From positions 1-64,000 of the forward strand of contig NZ_NEVN01000002.1 in assembly GCF_002261475.1 (NCBI RefSeq): DNA of 64,000 bases. The letters run 5' to 3'. Of this stretch, positions 6,069-11,518 are shown one piece after another (the stretch's first letter is position 1; each line of letters begins with the position of its first letter). A program made the translations under genes and the position numbers. The notes beneath the pieces are model-generated. The model was not told the origin of the DNA, ran no database searches, and saw only the letters and a list, made by a program, of their open reading frames with translations. This DNA is from Bordetella genomosp. 5 (GTDB taxonomy: Bacteria; Pseudomonadota; Gammaproteobacteria; Burkholderiales; Burkholderiaceae_B).

Positions 6069-7010
6069 TCAGCCGGCGCGCGGCTTGCGCCCGCCCCGCG
6101 CCGTGGCGCGCGCCGCGCCCTTTCTGGCCGCCGGTTCACGCGCCGCGGTCAGCGCGCTGTCGAGCTGCTCCATCCAGGAAAGCGCGTCGGCGTACAGCAG
6201 GAAGCGGCGCAGATACTCGGGGGAGAGTTCGCGCATGAGCGCGAGCGAGCGGTGCACCAGATGGCTGGAGTTGAGCGGGCCGGCGTTGTCCGGCACCAGC
6301 GCCTCGGAGTGGCGGACCTGCTGATCGGCGCTGAGATGCGACCAGAGATCGCGCAGCTTATCCAGCAGCGGCAGCTCGGGATAGCGATGGCCCGGATGGT
6401 CGGCGTGCGCGGCGGGCCGGGCGCCGTCCGCCGCGGCGAAGGCGGCCAGCAGTTGCGCCAGCGGGCCGGGGTCGGGCGCGGAGGGGGCCGGGGTGGCAGG
6501 GGCCGGCGGTGTGGAGTTTGCCGCTACGGCGGCCGCCATGGCGGCGCTCGTCTGCACGTTCGCCGCGGGTGCCGTGCCGTCGGCAGCCGCGTCGTCGTCC
6601 TGCGCGGTCTCGCCGTCCACGGGCTGCGGATCGTTCGATGGCATCTCAGGCGTCTGCGTGGCACCGGCCCGCAGTTCGGCCGCCCGGGCCTCGAGCTGCG
6701 CGCGGGCCTCGCCCTCGAGGGCTTGCGCCCGCCGTTCGAGCGTCTCCGCGAGCTGCCGCCGCAGGGCCGGGCCCAGCGGGCGGCGCGGCGCGGGCGGGGC
6801 GGCGTCGGGCGCCGTGCCTTCGGGCGCCGTGCCTTCGGGCGGCGCGCCTTCGGGCATCGCACCGTCGGGCGGCGTACCGTCGGTCATCGCGCCTCCGGGC
6901 ATCGTGCCTTCGGGCACCGCGTCCTCGGCCTTGGTGCCGTCGGCGGCCTGCCGCGGCGTCTGCACCGTGTCAGGCGTCGCGTCGCTCGAGGTGTCGTGCG
7001 CGTCAGTCAC
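6069..7010 (-). CDS. DUF2894-family protein with pentapeptide-repeat linker
   Basis: A 313-residue protein of unknown function, predicted cytoplasmic. It starts at a GTG (7008-7010) that lies inside the 3' end of the upstream OmpA-like gene, an 8-base overlap that implies coupled translation. Residues about 25-60 are a low-complexity linker of PEGTA/PDGAM-type pentapeptides. A charged coiled-coil helix follows (QLAETLERRAQALEGEARAQ). The conserved C-terminal block holds RYPELPLLDKLRDLWSHLSADQQVR and LVHRSLALMRELSPEYLRRFL, then a basic tail. I recall this block as DUF2894, which accompanies DUF802 and DUF3348 genes in Burkholderiales. No enzyme motif is visible; an adaptor or scaffold role is a guess. 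Confidence 0.8.
   Translation of the reverse strand: MTDAHDTSSDATPDTVQTPRQAADGTKAEDAVPEGTMPGGAMTDGTPPDGAMPEGAPPEGTAPEGTAPDAAPPAPRRPLGPALRRQLAETLERRAQALEGEARAQLEARAAELRAGATQTPEMPSNDPQPVDGETAQDDDAAADGTAPAANVQTSAAMAAAVAANSTPPAPATPAPSAPDPGPLAQLLAAFAAADGARPAAHADHPGHRYPELPLLDKLRDLWSHLSADQQVRHSEALVPDNAGPLNSSHLVHRSLALMRELSPEYLRRFLLYADALSWMEQLDSALTAAREPAARKGAARATARGGRKPRAG
6799..6918. repeat. 15-bp tandem repeat (8 units) inside DUF2894 gene
   Basis: Eight in-frame 15-base units resembling GTGCCTTCGGGCGCC run without gaps and encode the Pro-Glu/Asp-Gly pentapeptide linker. Unit number may vary between strains without a frameshift. Confidence 0.75.
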
Positions 7011-7674
7011 GGGACCGGCCGGATGCGCCGTTGCCGGCGTCCGCGGGTTTGGCGCCGCGGCGCGGCACCGGCGCGATTTCCACGCGGCGGTTCTGTGCGC
7101 GGCCGGCCTCGTCGGCGTTCGACGCCACGGGCTGCTCGGCGCCGAACGCGGCGGCGAAGATGGATGCGGCCGGGATGCCTTCTTCGATCAGCGCGCGCGT
7201 GACCGTGAGCGCGCGTTGCGCCGAGAGATCCCAGTTGTCGGCAAAGCGGCGGTTGTTCTCGCGCACCTGCTGGTCGTCCGTGAAGCCGCTCACCATCAGC
7301 GCCTCTTCGCGCTGGCCGAGGTAGTCGGCCAGCGGCTGGGCCAGGCTCTTGAGGATCTCGCGGCCCTCGGGCTGGAGCTGATCCGAGTTGAGCGCGAACA
7401 GCACGCTGCCGCTGATGCCGATGCGCCCGTCGATGAGCGTGACGCGGCCGGCGGCCAGCGGCACGGCGAGCGCCTGCTCCAGCGTCTGGCGCTGCTGCAC
7501 GGCCTCTTCGCGCTGCTTCACTTCGTCTTCGAGCTTGGCCGAGAGTTCGAGCTGCATGCCGATCACGCCCACGAGGATCAGAACGAAGGCGCCGAGCAGC
7601 ACCGACATCAGATCGCCGAAAACGGTCCAGACCGGCGCGGTCGGCTCGACGCCGGCGTCGAGGTCGTCTCTCAT
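7003..7674 (-). CDS. MotB/ZorB-like OmpA-domain protein, stator partner of DUF802 protein
   Basis: A 223-residue inner-membrane protein with one N-terminal TM helix (about residues 16-40) and a periplasmic OmpA-like peptidoglycan-binding domain (about 75-200). The TM begins VWTVFGDLMSVLLGAF. D21 sits where MotB and ZorB carry the proton-accepting Asp (D-x-M-x-x-L pattern). OmpA motifs are FTDDQQVRENNR (131-142), WDLSAQRALTVTRAL (148-162) and NRRVEI (195-200). Its ATG overlaps the DUF802 stop (ATGA) and its stop overlaps the DUF2894 start. The pairing with a MotA/TolQ-like protein implies an ion-driven complex anchored to the cell wall. It is not the flagellar motB, as no flagellar genes adjoin. 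Confidence 0.88.
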   Translation of the reverse strand: MRDDLDAGVEPTAPVWTVFGDLMSVLLGAFVLILVGVIGMQLELSAKLEDEVKQREEAVQQRQTLEQALAVPLAAGRVTLIDGRIGISGSVLFALNSDQLQPEGREILKSLAQPLADYLGQREEALMVSGFTDDQQVRENNRRFADNWDLSAQRALTVTRALIEEGIPAASIFAAAFGAEQPVASNADEAGRAQNRRVEIAPVPRRGAKPADAGNGASGRSRD

Positions 7675-10600
7675 TCGGCCGCCGCTTCCGCTTCAGTGGC
7701 GGCGATCTCGCGCCGTTCGTTTTCGCGGCGATCATTCAGGTGCTGCAGCTCTTCGAGAATCTGCTTCTGCGACAGCATGCTGAGGTCGACCACTTCGCGT
7801 GCCTGCGCCACGTAGTAGGCGAGCTGCTCGTCGCTGCGGGCGAGCGACTTGTCGAGCGCGCCTTCGATGCGCTGCAGGTGCGCGATGAGGGTTTCGTTGG
7901 CCTCGCCGTACGACTGCACGGCCGAGCCCAGGGCTTCGCCCAGGCTGGCCACTTCGACCGAGCTGGACGTGATCTGCGCGGCCACGCCCGTGAGTTTGCC
8001 GGTTTCGCCTTCGACCTGTTCGGTGAAGCGGCTGCCCACGCGGTCGAAGAGTTCGGCCGAGCTGGAAATCAGGGCATCCACCGCCACGCGCTGTTCCGCG
8101 GAGGCGTGGTTCACGGCCTCGAGCAGCGTGCCCAGGGTCTCGAGCAGACGGGCGCGCTCTTCGAGCATCTCGTTGTCGCGCACCATGCTGTCGGACAGCT
8201 TCTGGCGCAGCTCGGCGACCACCTCGGCGGCCGCTTGCGGCGCCTGCGCCGCCACCTGCACCAGCTGGCCGATCTCGGCGATGGTGGCGCTGGCGTGGGC
8301 TTCGGCCTGCGCGGTGATGTCTTCGGCGGTGCGGGACAGCGTGGTCACGATCTCGCCCTGGCGGCTGGCCTGCTGCTCGGCGGCTTCCTGCCATTGCTGG
8401 CGCAGCGTGTCGGCCATCGTCTGCATCGAATCGGCCCAGGCGGCCAGACGCGCTTCGTCGCGTTCGGCCAGCGCGGTCTGCAGCGACACGTGCGACTCGC
8501 CGAGCGTCGAGAGCAGGGCGTCGGAATGGTTTTCGAAGGTGCTGGCCGCGGCGGCCAGGCTGGTCGAGATGCGGGCCAGTTCTTCGTGCGCCTGGCTGGC
8601 ATGGGCACGGGCCTGCGTGCCGATCTCGTCGGCGGCGCGCGACAGCGAGCTCACGATCTCGTCCTGACGGCTGGCCTGTTGCTCGCCGGCCTGTTGCCAC
8701 TCCTGGCGCAGCGTGTCGGCCAGGCCCTGCATCGAGGCGGCCCAGGCCGCCAGACGCGCCTCGTCGCGCGCGGCGAGCGTGTCCTGCAGCGAGGTATGCG
8801 ATTCGCCCAGCGTGGACAGCAGCGTGTCGGAATGGCTTTCGAAGGTGGCGGCCGCGGTAGCCAGGTGATGCGAGATGCGGGCGAGTTCTTCGTGCGTCTG
8901 GCTCGCCTGTTCGCGGGCCTGGACGCCGAGCTGTTCGGCGGTGCGCGCAAGCGCGTCGCAGATGGCTTGCTGGCGGCTCGCGGTGGACTCGCCGGTTTCC
9001 TGCCATTGCTGACGCAGCGCGTCGGCCAGGCCTTGCAGCGTGCCGGTCCAGGATTGCAGGCGCTGCTCGTCGCCGGCGCTCAGACGCGTCTGCAGTTCGG
9101 TATGCGAAGCGTTGACGCTGGCAATGAGTGAGCCCGCGTGCTGCTCGAAGGCCGTGGTGGTGGCGGCCAGGCGCTCGGCCAGGCTGGTGACCTCGGCCAG
9201 CGTGGTGTTGGCGTGCTCCTGCATGCGGGCCGCCGCGGCGCTGGCGGTCTGCACCAGCGTGTCGCAGATCTCGGCCTGCTGCGTGGCGGTCTGGGCGCCG
9301 GTCTCCTGCCACTGCTGACGCAGCGCGCCCGACATCGCGTGCAGCGACTCGGCCCAGGCGGACAGGCGCTCTTCGTCGCGCGAGGCCAGCGTGTTCTGCA
9401 GCTCGGCGTTGGACTGGTTGACCGCGCCCAGCAGGGCGCCGGCGTGTTCCTGGAACGTGGCGGCGGCGCGTGCGAGCGCCTGCTGGTTGTCGCCGGCCAG
9501 TTGCGCGCCGACGCGCTCCTGGCGCTCGAGCGCTTCGGTCCAGGTGCGCGCGACGGACTCGGTGGCCTGCTGCAGCGTGTCGGTGACGCCCTGCGTGGTG
9601 ACCTCGAGGCGCGTGGACACGCCGTCGAGCAGCGTGGCCGCGCGCGTGTCGAAGGTCTGCGCATAGCCTTCGAGGGCGGCGCGCAGATCGTCGTTGAGCA
9701 CCTGGTTGGCGCGTTGCTGCGCCTCCAGGGCCTGCTTCCAGACATCGGCCATGTCGGTGGCGCTGCGGTCGAAGCGCGCGGTCATGCCATCGAGATGGGC
9801 CTGCGTGGCCTGCGTGACGGTGTCATGCCAGGCGGTCGTGTCGCGCGACAGGCTCGCCAGCGTGGATTCCATCGCCGGACGGATCGCTTCGCCGGCCGCG
9901 CGGGCGCTGGCGGCGGCGCTCTCGCGCGCGCTGTCCTTCATGGTCTGGTCGACGTGCGAAGCCAGGCGCGTGTAGACGCTCTCGGCCTTTTCGTGGAAGG
10001 CGTTCTGGCTGGCGAGCAGTTGCTGGCCCAGCGTCTGTTGATGGCGTTCGAGCGTGTCCATCATGGACTGCAGGCGATCGACCAGGGCAGGCAGCACTTC
10101 GGCCTGGCGCTGCATGAGCTGCTGCGTGTTGTCGCGCTGGTGCGCCGCCGAGTACGGGCGCAGCGTGGTGATGATGCGTGCATCGAGGCGCTGCGACGCG
10201 GCGATGCGCTCGCGGCGGCACAGCGCGCCCAGCAGGCCCAGCATGGCCGAGGTGGCCACGCCGGCGATCGAGGTGCCGAAGGCGAAGCCCAGGCCCTTGA
10301 CCGGGGCGGCCAGCGAGGCGCGGATCGCCTGCAGGTCGGTGGCGCTCTCGAGCGCGATGCCGGTGCCGCGCAGCGTCGCGACCATGCCGAGGAAGGTGCC
10401 CAGCATGCCCAGCAGCACCAGCAGGCCCACGATGTAGGGCGTGAGCGACGGCGCGGGCAGCGCGACGCGCTCGCCCTCGATGCGCTGGCGCACGGCCACG
10501 CGCAGTGCGGCGGGCAGGCTTTCGATCCAGGCGGGCAGGTCGGCGGGCGCTTGCTCCAGGCCGTCGACGGCGCGATTCAGGTGCCTCGTGCCCTGGTGGT

Positions 10601-10757
10601 AGCGCAGCAGTTCGGCGGCGCCCGCGATATAGAACGCGCCGATCACGAGGGTGATGACGAGCGCGAGCGGATTGGTGGCGACATAGCCCGCCCCGATCCA
10701 GACCACGGCCGCGAGGCCCGCCAGAAAAACCACCACGCTGATGAGAGATCGAATCAT
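7671..10757 (-). CDS. DUF802 protein: MotA/TolQ-like channel with giant coiled-coil tail
   Basis: A 1028-residue inner-membrane protein. TM helices lie at about residues 3-26 and 29-50, then 106-128 (PYIVGLLVLLGMLGTFLGMV) and 151-179 (APVKGLGFAFGTSIAGVATS). The last two match the pore helices of MotA/TolQ/ExbB proteins. The remaining ~800 residues are predicted cytoplasmic helix, including four tandem 102-residue units (residues 434-841) with cores like LAARDEARLAAWAASMQGLA, each matching a DUF802-type block. I start at the ATG 10755-10757 (MIRSL), which overlaps the DUF3348 stop as ATGA. The frame is open 642 bases further upstream, but that part only shadows DUF3348. The architecture recalls ZorA of Zorya defence, but no ZorC, ZorD or ZorE is nearby. 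Confidence 0.88.
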   Translation of the reverse strand: MIRSLISVVVFLAGLAAVVWIGAGYVATNPLALVITLVIGAFYIAGAAELLRYHQGTRHLNRAVDGLEQAPADLPAWIESLPAALRVAVRQRIEGERVALPAPSLTPYIVGLLVLLGMLGTFLGMVATLRGTGIALESATDLQAIRASLAAPVKGLGFAFGTSIAGVATSAMLGLLGALCRRERIAASQRLDARIITTLRPYSAAHQRDNTQQLMQRQAEVLPALVDRLQSMMDTLERHQQTLGQQLLASQNAFHEKAESVYTRLASHVDQTMKDSARESAAASARAAGEAIRPAMESTLASLSRDTTAWHDTVTQATQAHLDGMTARFDRSATDMADVWKQALEAQQRANQVLNDDLRAALEGYAQTFDTRAATLLDGVSTRLEVTTQGVTDTLQQATESVARTWTEALERQERVGAQLAGDNQQALARAAATFQEHAGALLGAVNQSNAELQNTLASRDEERLSAWAESLHAMSGALRQQWQETGAQTATQQAEICDTLVQTASAAAARMQEHANTTLAEVTSLAERLAATTTAFEQHAGSLIASVNASHTELQTRLSAGDEQRLQSWTGTLQGLADALRQQWQETGESTASRQQAICDALARTAEQLGVQAREQASQTHEELARISHHLATAAATFESHSDTLLSTLGESHTSLQDTLAARDEARLAAWAASMQGLADTLRQEWQQAGEQQASRQDEIVSSLSRAADEIGTQARAHASQAHEELARISTSLAAAASTFENHSDALLSTLGESHVSLQTALAERDEARLAAWADSMQTMADTLRQQWQEAAEQQASRQGEIVTTLSRTAEDITAQAEAHASATIAEIGQLVQVAAQAPQAAAEVVAELRQKLSDSMVRDNEMLEERARLLETLGTLLEAVNHASAEQRVAVDALISSSAELFDRVGSRFTEQVEGETGKLTGVAAQITSSSVEVASLGEALGSAVQSYGEANETLIAHLQRIEGALDKSLARSDEQLAYYVAQAREVVDLSMLSQKQILEELQHLNDRRENERREIAATEAEAAAE
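8235..9458 (-). repeat. Four tandem 306-bp coding repeats in DUF802 gene
   Basis: Units start (minus strand) at 9458, 9152, 8846 and 8540, exactly 306 bp (102 codons) apart. Each begins with a TFE-x-H or TFQEH-type heptad and holds an R-D-E-x-R-L-x-A-W core. Units 3 and 4 are the most alike and the last unit diverges at its end. The pattern points to expansion by unequal recombination. Confidence 0.85.
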
Positions 10758-11518
10758 GTTTTCTTGTTCAGTGTTTGCTCGCCCGCGCTTGCGCGCAGGG
10801 TGGCGATCAGTCCTTCGACCGGCTGCAGGCGCACGTCGAGCTCGGCCAGCAGCACGCTGCGCATGTCGGCCAGGAAGACGGGCAGCCACGCGTCGATGGC
10901 CGGCACGGGCGCCTGCGCCGCCTCGGCCTCGGCGCGCTCGGCGCGCGCCGCGTTGCGCAGGCGTTCGAAATGTCCTTGCAGCAGAAAGGGCACCGTGCCC
11001 ATCAGACTGCGTTCCCGCGTGATCAGCGCGCGGTCCATGATGGCATCGAGCACCGCGAGGCCGGTGCCTTCCGGCGTCTTGCCGGCCAGCAGACCGCGCA
11101 GCCGGCTGCGCAGATTGCCGATGTTGGTTTCCATCGTGTGCTGCAGCGAGATGTAGCGTTGACGGTACGTGCCGAACTCCGGCTCGGTCGGCTCGGCCGG
11201 CGTCTTGTTGCGCGCATGGCGCAGCGGGGTGGCCGACGGGACCGCGCTGTCGCGCACGATGGCGTCCTGCAGCGCGGCGCGCACGCGTGCGCATTCGCGC
11301 GACTGTTCGTCGTCGAAGGTGCGTGTGTGGGCCGGCACCACCGGGGCGTTGCCATCCAGGGCCGCGGCCAGTGCGATCGCGTCGGTCCAGCCCAGCCATT
11401 GGCTCAGGCGGTCGGACAGCGGCAGCCGCGAAGCGGGTATGTCGGCGCTGCTCAGACGGGCCAGCAGACGAACGAGCGTCGGGCCGCTGATACCGGCGCG
11501 CCGGGTCGGTTGCTCCAT
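10754..11518 (-). CDS. DUF3348-family protein, first gene of stator operon
   Basis: A 254-residue soluble protein with no signal peptide or TM helix. Recognisable blocks are LVRLLARLSSADIPASRLPLSDRLSQWLGW (about 15-45), EFGTYRQRYISLQHTMETNIGNLRSRLR (about 135-162) and DAWLPVFLADMRSVLLAELDVRLQPVEGL (about 210-238), which I recall as DUF3348. The ATG at 11516-11518 was preferred over an open extension to 11617, because the extension is Pro-rich and unlike the family. The ribosome site is weak (CAGG). Its stop overlaps the DUF802 start as ATGA, so the two are made together. It may be a cytosolic partner of the DUF802 tail; function unknown. Confidence 0.82.
   Translation of the reverse strand: MEQPTRRAGISGPTLVRLLARLSSADIPASRLPLSDRLSQWLGWTDAIALAAALDGNAPVVPAHTRTFDDEQSRECARVRAALQDAIVRDSAVPSATPLRHARNKTPAEPTEPEFGTYRQRYISLQHTMETNIGNLRSRLRGLLAGKTPEGTGLAVLDAIMDRALITRERSLMGTVPFLLQGHFERLRNAARAERAEAEAAQAPVPAIDAWLPVFLADMRSVLLAELDVRLQPVEGLIATLRASAGEQTLNKKT

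Follow-up and report, generated by a model that had tools for sequence, protein, structure and literature searches.

A probable complete Zorya type III anti-phage operon in Bordetella genomosp. 5, with a ZorA tail that carries a lineage-specific repeat

Among the Zorya anti-phage systems, types I (ZorABCD) and II (ZorABE) have been resolved by cryo-electron microscopy as 5:2 complexes in which the elongated tail is a bundle of five ZorA C termini, and their defence requires the ZorB aspartate, peptidoglycan binding and the tail (PMC11890865; this and the other papers are cited for the parts of their text that we used). Type III was named in 2021, from 6,401 gene pairs flanked by genes for DUF3348 and DUF2894 proteins (PMC8565338), a definition repeated in PMC11890865. 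A type III copy from Stenotrophomonas nitritireducens placed in Escherichia coli decreased the plaquing of at least one tested phage and, when the multiplicity of infection was below 0.1, shielded liquid cultures from one phage (PMC8565338). Here, we analyzed a 64,000-nucleotide stretch of Bordetella genomosp. 5 (contig NZ_NEVN01000002.1, positions 1 to 64,000), referred to below as the window, which contains a four-gene operon that is very probably a complete Zorya type III system, that is, an ion-driven motor with DUF3348 and DUF2894 proteins as companions.

All four proteins matched the PADLOC models of Zorya type III (E values in Table 1), so that membership by sequence is a direct result. 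The locus has a ZorA protein with a pore and a long C-terminal tail, a ZorB protein with a membrane aspartate and an OmpA/MotB domain, and flanking genes for DUF3348 and DUF2894, which are the features that define this type. The two companions matched DUF3348 and DUF2894 (type III) models only and not those of the ZorC/ZorD or ZorE types. Compared with the set described in PMC8565338, we found the same four genes, every model matched and nothing essential different; the window ZorA tail has a 102-residue repeat, and the S. nitritireducens copy was not compared with it residue by residue. The kind of operon is therefore already known. The original prediction, made from the bare sequence, had taken these genes for an uncharacterized machine without an assigned function and had named a published function as what would overturn that view; such a function is on record, since the same gene set has been tested against phages (PMC8565338), and naming the operon as a known defence system removes a false "unknown machine." Phage defence itself, which was one of the roles proposed at the time, is published for another type III copy in the same paper. 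The names of the companions are swapped between sources, DUF3348 being ZorF and DUF2894 being ZorG in the parts of PMC8565338 and PMC11890865 that we used and the reverse in PADLOC-DB 2.0.0 (ZorG3 and ZorF3, respectively); we use the domain names throughout.

The two motor proteins show the body plan of ion-driven stators that had been predicted from their sequences, and it is closest to ZorAB. The ZorA-like (DUF802) protein contains the expected MotA/TolQ-type pore motifs GMLGTFLGMV and APVKGLGFAFGTSIAG, and within the pore, GMLGTFLGM and AFGTS (the Ser/Thr-bearing pore segment) were invariant in all 19 aligned rows. Its partner has the single transmembrane helix and the peptidoglycan-binding domain attributed to it, and Asp21, located within the motif WTVFGDLMS, was invariant in 20/20 aligned ZorB rows, including that of the window. 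A profile comparison with ZorA and ZorB, which had been suggested as a check, gave matches to both type I chains. The ZorB profile (20 rows) matched type I ZorB (8vvn_B) along positions 7 to 213, including the N-terminal helix (E value, 1.4e-8), and the other 59 of the 60 Protein Data Bank (PDB) rows listed for this profile begin at position 50 or later. For the ZorA profile, built from the first 300 residues of 19 N termini, the sole PDB match at an E value of ≤0.1 was type I ZorA (8vvn_C), over the pore (2.9e-5). Thus, the window operon shares the ZorA/ZorB body plan with types I and II, which have ZorC/D (helicase) or ZorE (nickase), whereas it has DUF3348 and DUF2894 instead.

The gene order, also a direct observation, was identical in all 19 relatives that carry the whole operon on one contig (20 were fetched; in the twentieth, L035, the contig ends inside ZorA), which indicates that the arrangement is not due to chance. 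In named genomes, 544 candidates were confirmed, and the 80 best of them form the set of named loci; 75 of these had the same order and the remaining 5 were broken by contig ends. Strains of Cupriavidus necator are among the carriers of the operon. The overlaps of 4, 4 and 8 bases predicted among the four window genes were confirmed from the coordinates. Across relatives, the 4-base overlap between ZorA and ZorB was present in 72/75 named loci and in 19/19 complete relatives, while the commonest spacing from DUF3348 to ZorA was a 10-base gap (56/73 named loci); counts for the overlap between ZorB and DUF2894 are biased, because the start codon was picked nearest the expected place, and were not used as evidence. 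Of the three overlaps, that between ZorA and ZorB alone is a rule. Because DUF3348 and ZorA are mostly separated by a gap, the overlaps give no ground for assuming that the four proteins are made in a fixed ratio, and fixed-ratio translation, as it had been read from the window, is ruled out as a general rule.

Lengths of ZorA clustered in the named loci at 697 to 700, 785, 871 to 874, 958 to 962 and 1,045 amino acids (aa), with one protein of 1,132 aa, and were mainly 1,098 to 1,099, 1,200 and 1,229 aa in Achromobacter, ZorA overall coming in lengths of 643 to 1,229 aa. We gathered 91 ZorA3 proteins (known duplicates removed) and scanned the 88 of at least 600 aa for internal repeats. A strong repeat (score of ≥30) was found in 64 of them, and shuffled versions of up to 25 of these reached scores of no more than 6. 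The threshold of 30, which selects 12 unit lengths, was chosen after seeing the table of unit lengths; a separate, hand-picked set of 9 unit lengths was also run and not used. By comparison, none of 5 type I ZorA open reading frames reached this score (best, 27; one frame was cut by its locus), and one type I ZorA model (PDLC00601, E value of ≤1e-30) had matches in only 4 genomes out of 369 from the class. Among the 24 ZorA3 proteins lacking a strong repeat, 10 were 697 to 700 aa long and others reached up to 1,043 aa, so a recent repeat does not account for every long tail.

The repeat unit is lineage specific. It was 87 aa long in 26 proteins from Cupriavidus, Paraburkholderia and their relatives, 131 aa in 19 proteins from Achromobacter and 102 aa in the window and in Bordetella genomosp. 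1, and there were other units of 33, 40, 44, 51, 62, 69, 80, 103 and 153 aa. In the window ZorA, the autocorrelation of the protein peaks at a lag of 102, and the DNA shows the repeat as well. Lengths follow the unit in many cases: 23 of the 27 proteins with a best lag of 87 exceed 697 aa by some multiple of 87, with or without one extra residue, and the step from 1,098 to 1,229 aa in Achromobacter equals one unit of 131, a step that the 1,200-aa group misfits. A single 87-aa step for all tails is ruled out, as lineages have units of different lengths (87, 131, 102, 80, 69 and others). The repeats preserve the helical phase: for a helix with 3.64 residues per turn, 11 of the 12 unit lengths (103 being the exception) are no more than 0.1 turn away from an integral number of turns. 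Only 1 in 5,000 random sets of 12 lengths, with the period scanned, was equally good, although the 12 lengths are not fully independent, since related lineages may share the origin of a unit. The simplest reading is that the ZorA tail is a continuous helical rod extended by in-register duplications. With a helix rise of about 0.15 nm per residue, an extended tail of ca. 820 residues could be as long as about 120 nm. Stepwise tail units were not described in the portions covered of the literature on DUF802, DUF3348/DUF2894 or Zorya III, which did not include the main structural account of type I. The length series offers natural variants for asking what the Zorya tail does (reach, torque or recruitment).

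By analogy with types I and II, ZorA and ZorB would assemble in the inner membrane into a rotary motor powered by ions (ZorA5B2), with ions passing at Asp21 of ZorB and the OmpA domains gripping peptidoglycan and so anchoring the motor in the cell wall. The pore would then rotate a pentameric helical tail extending into the cytoplasm, and DUF3348 and DUF2894 might work on or via this tail, substituting for ZorC/D or ZorE and stopping the incoming phage. For the window copy, we infer the 5:2 stoichiometry, the rotation, the contact of both companions with the tail and defence in the native host; the companions could act as a tail cap, as a sensor or as an effector.

Several observations weigh against this explanation. 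The four antiphage ZorA models of NCBIfam all remained below their cut-off (best, 32.5 bits versus 100), and in the ZorB profile comparison, MotB chains (E values down to 7e-19) outranked type I ZorB over the OmpA domain. Published protection concerns one system in a foreign host (PMC8565338), and in the one infection transcriptome found, the part of the report that we used gives a change only in the first one or two Zorya III genes (PMC12584637). A nuclease or other effector domain was seen in neither DUF3348 nor DUF2894, no other Pfam family matched them at an E value of ≤1, and no nickase or helicase model matched either protein; searched as profiles against the PDB, they gave one weak match each (E values of 0.044 and 0.35) and no usable relative. 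Nothing visible in the operon therefore corresponds to the killing step known from types I and II. The two companions that the original prediction called unknown are the named ZorF and ZorG of type III. Finally, the operon is nearly fixed in some genera, which is unusual for defence, and few defence models were found near it, two points that bear on what else the machine could be doing.

The same ZorAB machine could serve as a housekeeping envelope motor whose main job is other than defence (it might, for instance, sense or work on the wall and relay a signal along the tail), with the protection seen in E. coli as a side effect. We consider this improbable, mainly defence remaining the preferred reading, and the protection of E. 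coli against at least one tested phage by a type III copy (PMC8565338) argues against it. Its distribution gives arguments on both sides. DUF3348 was present in 98 of the 268 genomes of the family to which the window belongs and in 17 of its 43 genera; the 26 genera without a match count against a housekeeping function. The type I restriction domain HSDR_N, used as a control, occurred in 121 of the same 268 genomes but in 36 of the 43 genera. One genus had DUF3348 in 41 of its 43 genomes, and completeness was only 78% and 57% for the other two (HSDR_N was found in 18 of the 43). Several other genera had it throughout or almost throughout (5/5, 9/9, 6/6, 4/4, 10/11, 2/2 and 2/2), as expected of a housekeeping motor. 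Low presence was found in other genera (1/5, 2/3 and 1 of at least 8); all these denominators were read from blocks of the genome list, the edges of which were checked. The window's genus had DUF3348 in 10/15 genomes (10/13 good ones), and a phylum-wide sample had it in 20/398, one of them below the cut-off. Such core-like presence raises the question of why a "defence" system is not lost. Core defence systems exist, however, and the part of PMC13064858 that we used describes high conservation of type III Zorya in Ralstonia solanacearum; the nearly all-or-none presence by genus fits this conservation and extends it to genera. As separate observations from these scans, the DUF3348 match came in two or three pieces in seven genomes (G029, G035, G138, G139, G229, G234 and G235), seemingly inside one open frame, as if the domain held an insert, with the exception of G138 (two contigs), and the control genome of Corynebacterium glutamicum had DUF2894 above the cut-off and no match to DUF3348.

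The chromosomal address of the operon was similarly divided in what it suggests. One neighbourhood was common to 9 of the 10 operon-bearing genomes of the window's genus, which is compatible with a housekeeping locus. An orthologous permease (≥87% identity) occurred in 8 genomes of the genus, 7 of them with the operon, and was located no more than ca. 13 kb from it in 6 of these 7 (in G003, it shares a contig with DUF2894 but is ca. 175 kb away from it); G004, G010 and G011 were linked to the common neighbourhood by other window genes. The permease was also near the remains of the operon in G014. At this same address (L152:11758-14951), G014 has a decayed operon with a long ZorA match, only the first ca. 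112 residues of ZorB and the last 39 of DUF2894, while DUF3348 was not found there; a clean empty site is thereby ruled out, and decay in a related genome argues against a housekeeping motor. Gene sharing in the flanks varied by genus, so the fixed address is limited to some genera: it was frequent within Achromobacter (111/210 pairs upstream and 126/190 downstream) and Paraburkholderia (47/91 and 39/91), lower in Cupriavidus (6/136 and 52/153), Ralstonia (6/15 and 3/15) and Caballeronia (2/10 and 2/10), nil in Trinickia (0/3 on either side) and 102/4,908 pairs between genera. In several genera, the operon's behaviour is that of a chromosomal locus passed on by descent, a pattern that the portions covered of the literature did not describe either; the little-shared flanks of Caballeronia, Trinickia and, upstream, Cupriavidus count against a housekeeping motor.

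A tree of the Zor proteins (ZorA N terminus, ZorB and DUF3348; 19 genomes) contained three subclades within the window's genus, two of which were supported in the RpoB tree, the third (G004, G010 and G011) being unresolved there. The genus as one clade was not rejected by either data set (approximately unbiased test p-AU, 0.34 for Zor and 0.25 for RpoB), a point for a housekeeping motor. It appeared, however, in none of 200 Zor bootstrap trees and in 15% of the RpoB ones, so that transfer between genera is possible. The genus clades were independent of two faulty rows, the RpoB row of G027 in the wrong frame (end branch of ca. 5 to 10) and the ZorA of G023 lacking its first 100 residues. L046 (G035; no RpoB row) and G003 (ZorB not on its contig) were excluded from the tree and L045 (G029) was retained, whereas the DUF3348 rows of both L045 and L046 were left out of the DUF3348 alignment.

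Searches of phage and plasmid records gave another point for a housekeeping motor. None of 50,697 phage records matched DUF3348, and the 133 pattern hits in viral contigs included no relative. Of 72,556 plasmid records, 27 had a match, all of them at least 366 kb in size, and smaller plasmids gave none. The neighbour scan covered 150 of the 151 listed flank genes and is a partial view, with few genes called in L043 and L044. Ten PADLOC models matched flank genes, with no more than three members each, a scarcity of defence models that again favors housekeeping. Five of these models were of the AAA type (RtcR three times, BrxL and TRIP13), and the others were mad1, mad3, PDC-M37B (two models) and DolB. 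The AAA-type matches are presumably cross-matches. Chemotaxis, TonB-receptor, transport and regulator families lead the 25 of 110 Pfam families listed for the flanks, and the 25 of 48 PHROG families listed have no more than 5 members each, mostly unnamed or transporters, with one "head maturation protease." As these are 25 families each of 110 and 48, mobile genes at single loci near the operon are possible.

A related and equally doubtful proposal is that Zorya III is an ancestral, vertically kept motor connecting wall and cytoplasm in Burkholderiales and part of the gammaproteobacteria, with the tail, an uninterrupted helical rod, as a tuned, register-locked ruler or drive shaft and a first role perhaps beyond defence. 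According to it, a basic ZorA of ca. 697 aa may have been adjusted in reach by each lineage through the addition of whole-turn coil units of 33 to 153 aa.

A flagellar (MotAB) or Tol/Ton motor pair would share with the window a MotA/TolQ-type pore, a single-helix partner with a membrane aspartate and an OmpA domain, and MotB-family and OmpA profiles do match the C-terminal domain of ZorB, with MotB chains among the best PDB matches, but this explanation is highly implausible and is contradicted by the gene content, as MotAB is not known to have a tail of ca. 800 residues or two companions, no Pfam MotA_ExbB row was obtained at an E value of ≤1, and among the 25 of 42 NCBIfam rows listed, no MotB/MotD model reached its cut-off, whereas PRK09040, a "hypothetical protein," alone exceeded its own.

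Table 1. Positions in the window of the Zorya type III operon and its parts
Feature	Coordinates	Strand	Evidence or remark
Operon, 4 genes	11518-6069	minus	neighbouring genes overlap by 4, 4 and 8 bases
DUF3348 protein, 254 aa	10754..11518	minus	Pfam PF11828, 1.5e-83; PADLOC ZorG3, 3.6e-96
ZorA3 (DUF802), 1028 aa: MotA/TolQ-type pore region at the N terminus, followed by a long tail that is probably helical	7671..10757	minus	PADLOC ZorA3, E value printed as 0
Tandem repeat in the ZorA tail, unit of 306 base pairs (102 aa), 2.5 copies, 78% matches	8289..9052	minus	Tandem Repeats Finder
ZorB3, 223 aa: one transmembrane helix with Asp21 and an OmpA-type peptidoglycan-binding domain	7003..7674	minus	PADLOC ZorB3, 9e-116
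DUF2894 protein, 313 aa, GTG start	6069..7010	minus	Pfam PF11445, 2.3e-38; PADLOC ZorF3, 1e-48

With regard to other domain matches, Pfam recognized DUF802 in ZorA (1.6e-26, across three stretches) and OmpA in ZorB (2.4e-20), and in the genome of the window, DUF802 was confined to the operon locus (two domain matches). A DedA/VTT-type gene (6060-5542) starts 8 bases after DUF2894; since such a gene was near the operon in only 1 of the 20 relatives, the nearest one (L034), we did not count it as part of the operon. In the alignment, the DUF2894 protein has a low-complexity front rich in Pro and Ala and a conserved C-terminal region (NAGPLNS...). Repeats of 15, 30 and 45 base pairs at positions 6791-6928 of the window correspond to the low-complexity Pro/Gly/Glu-rich front of DUF2894.

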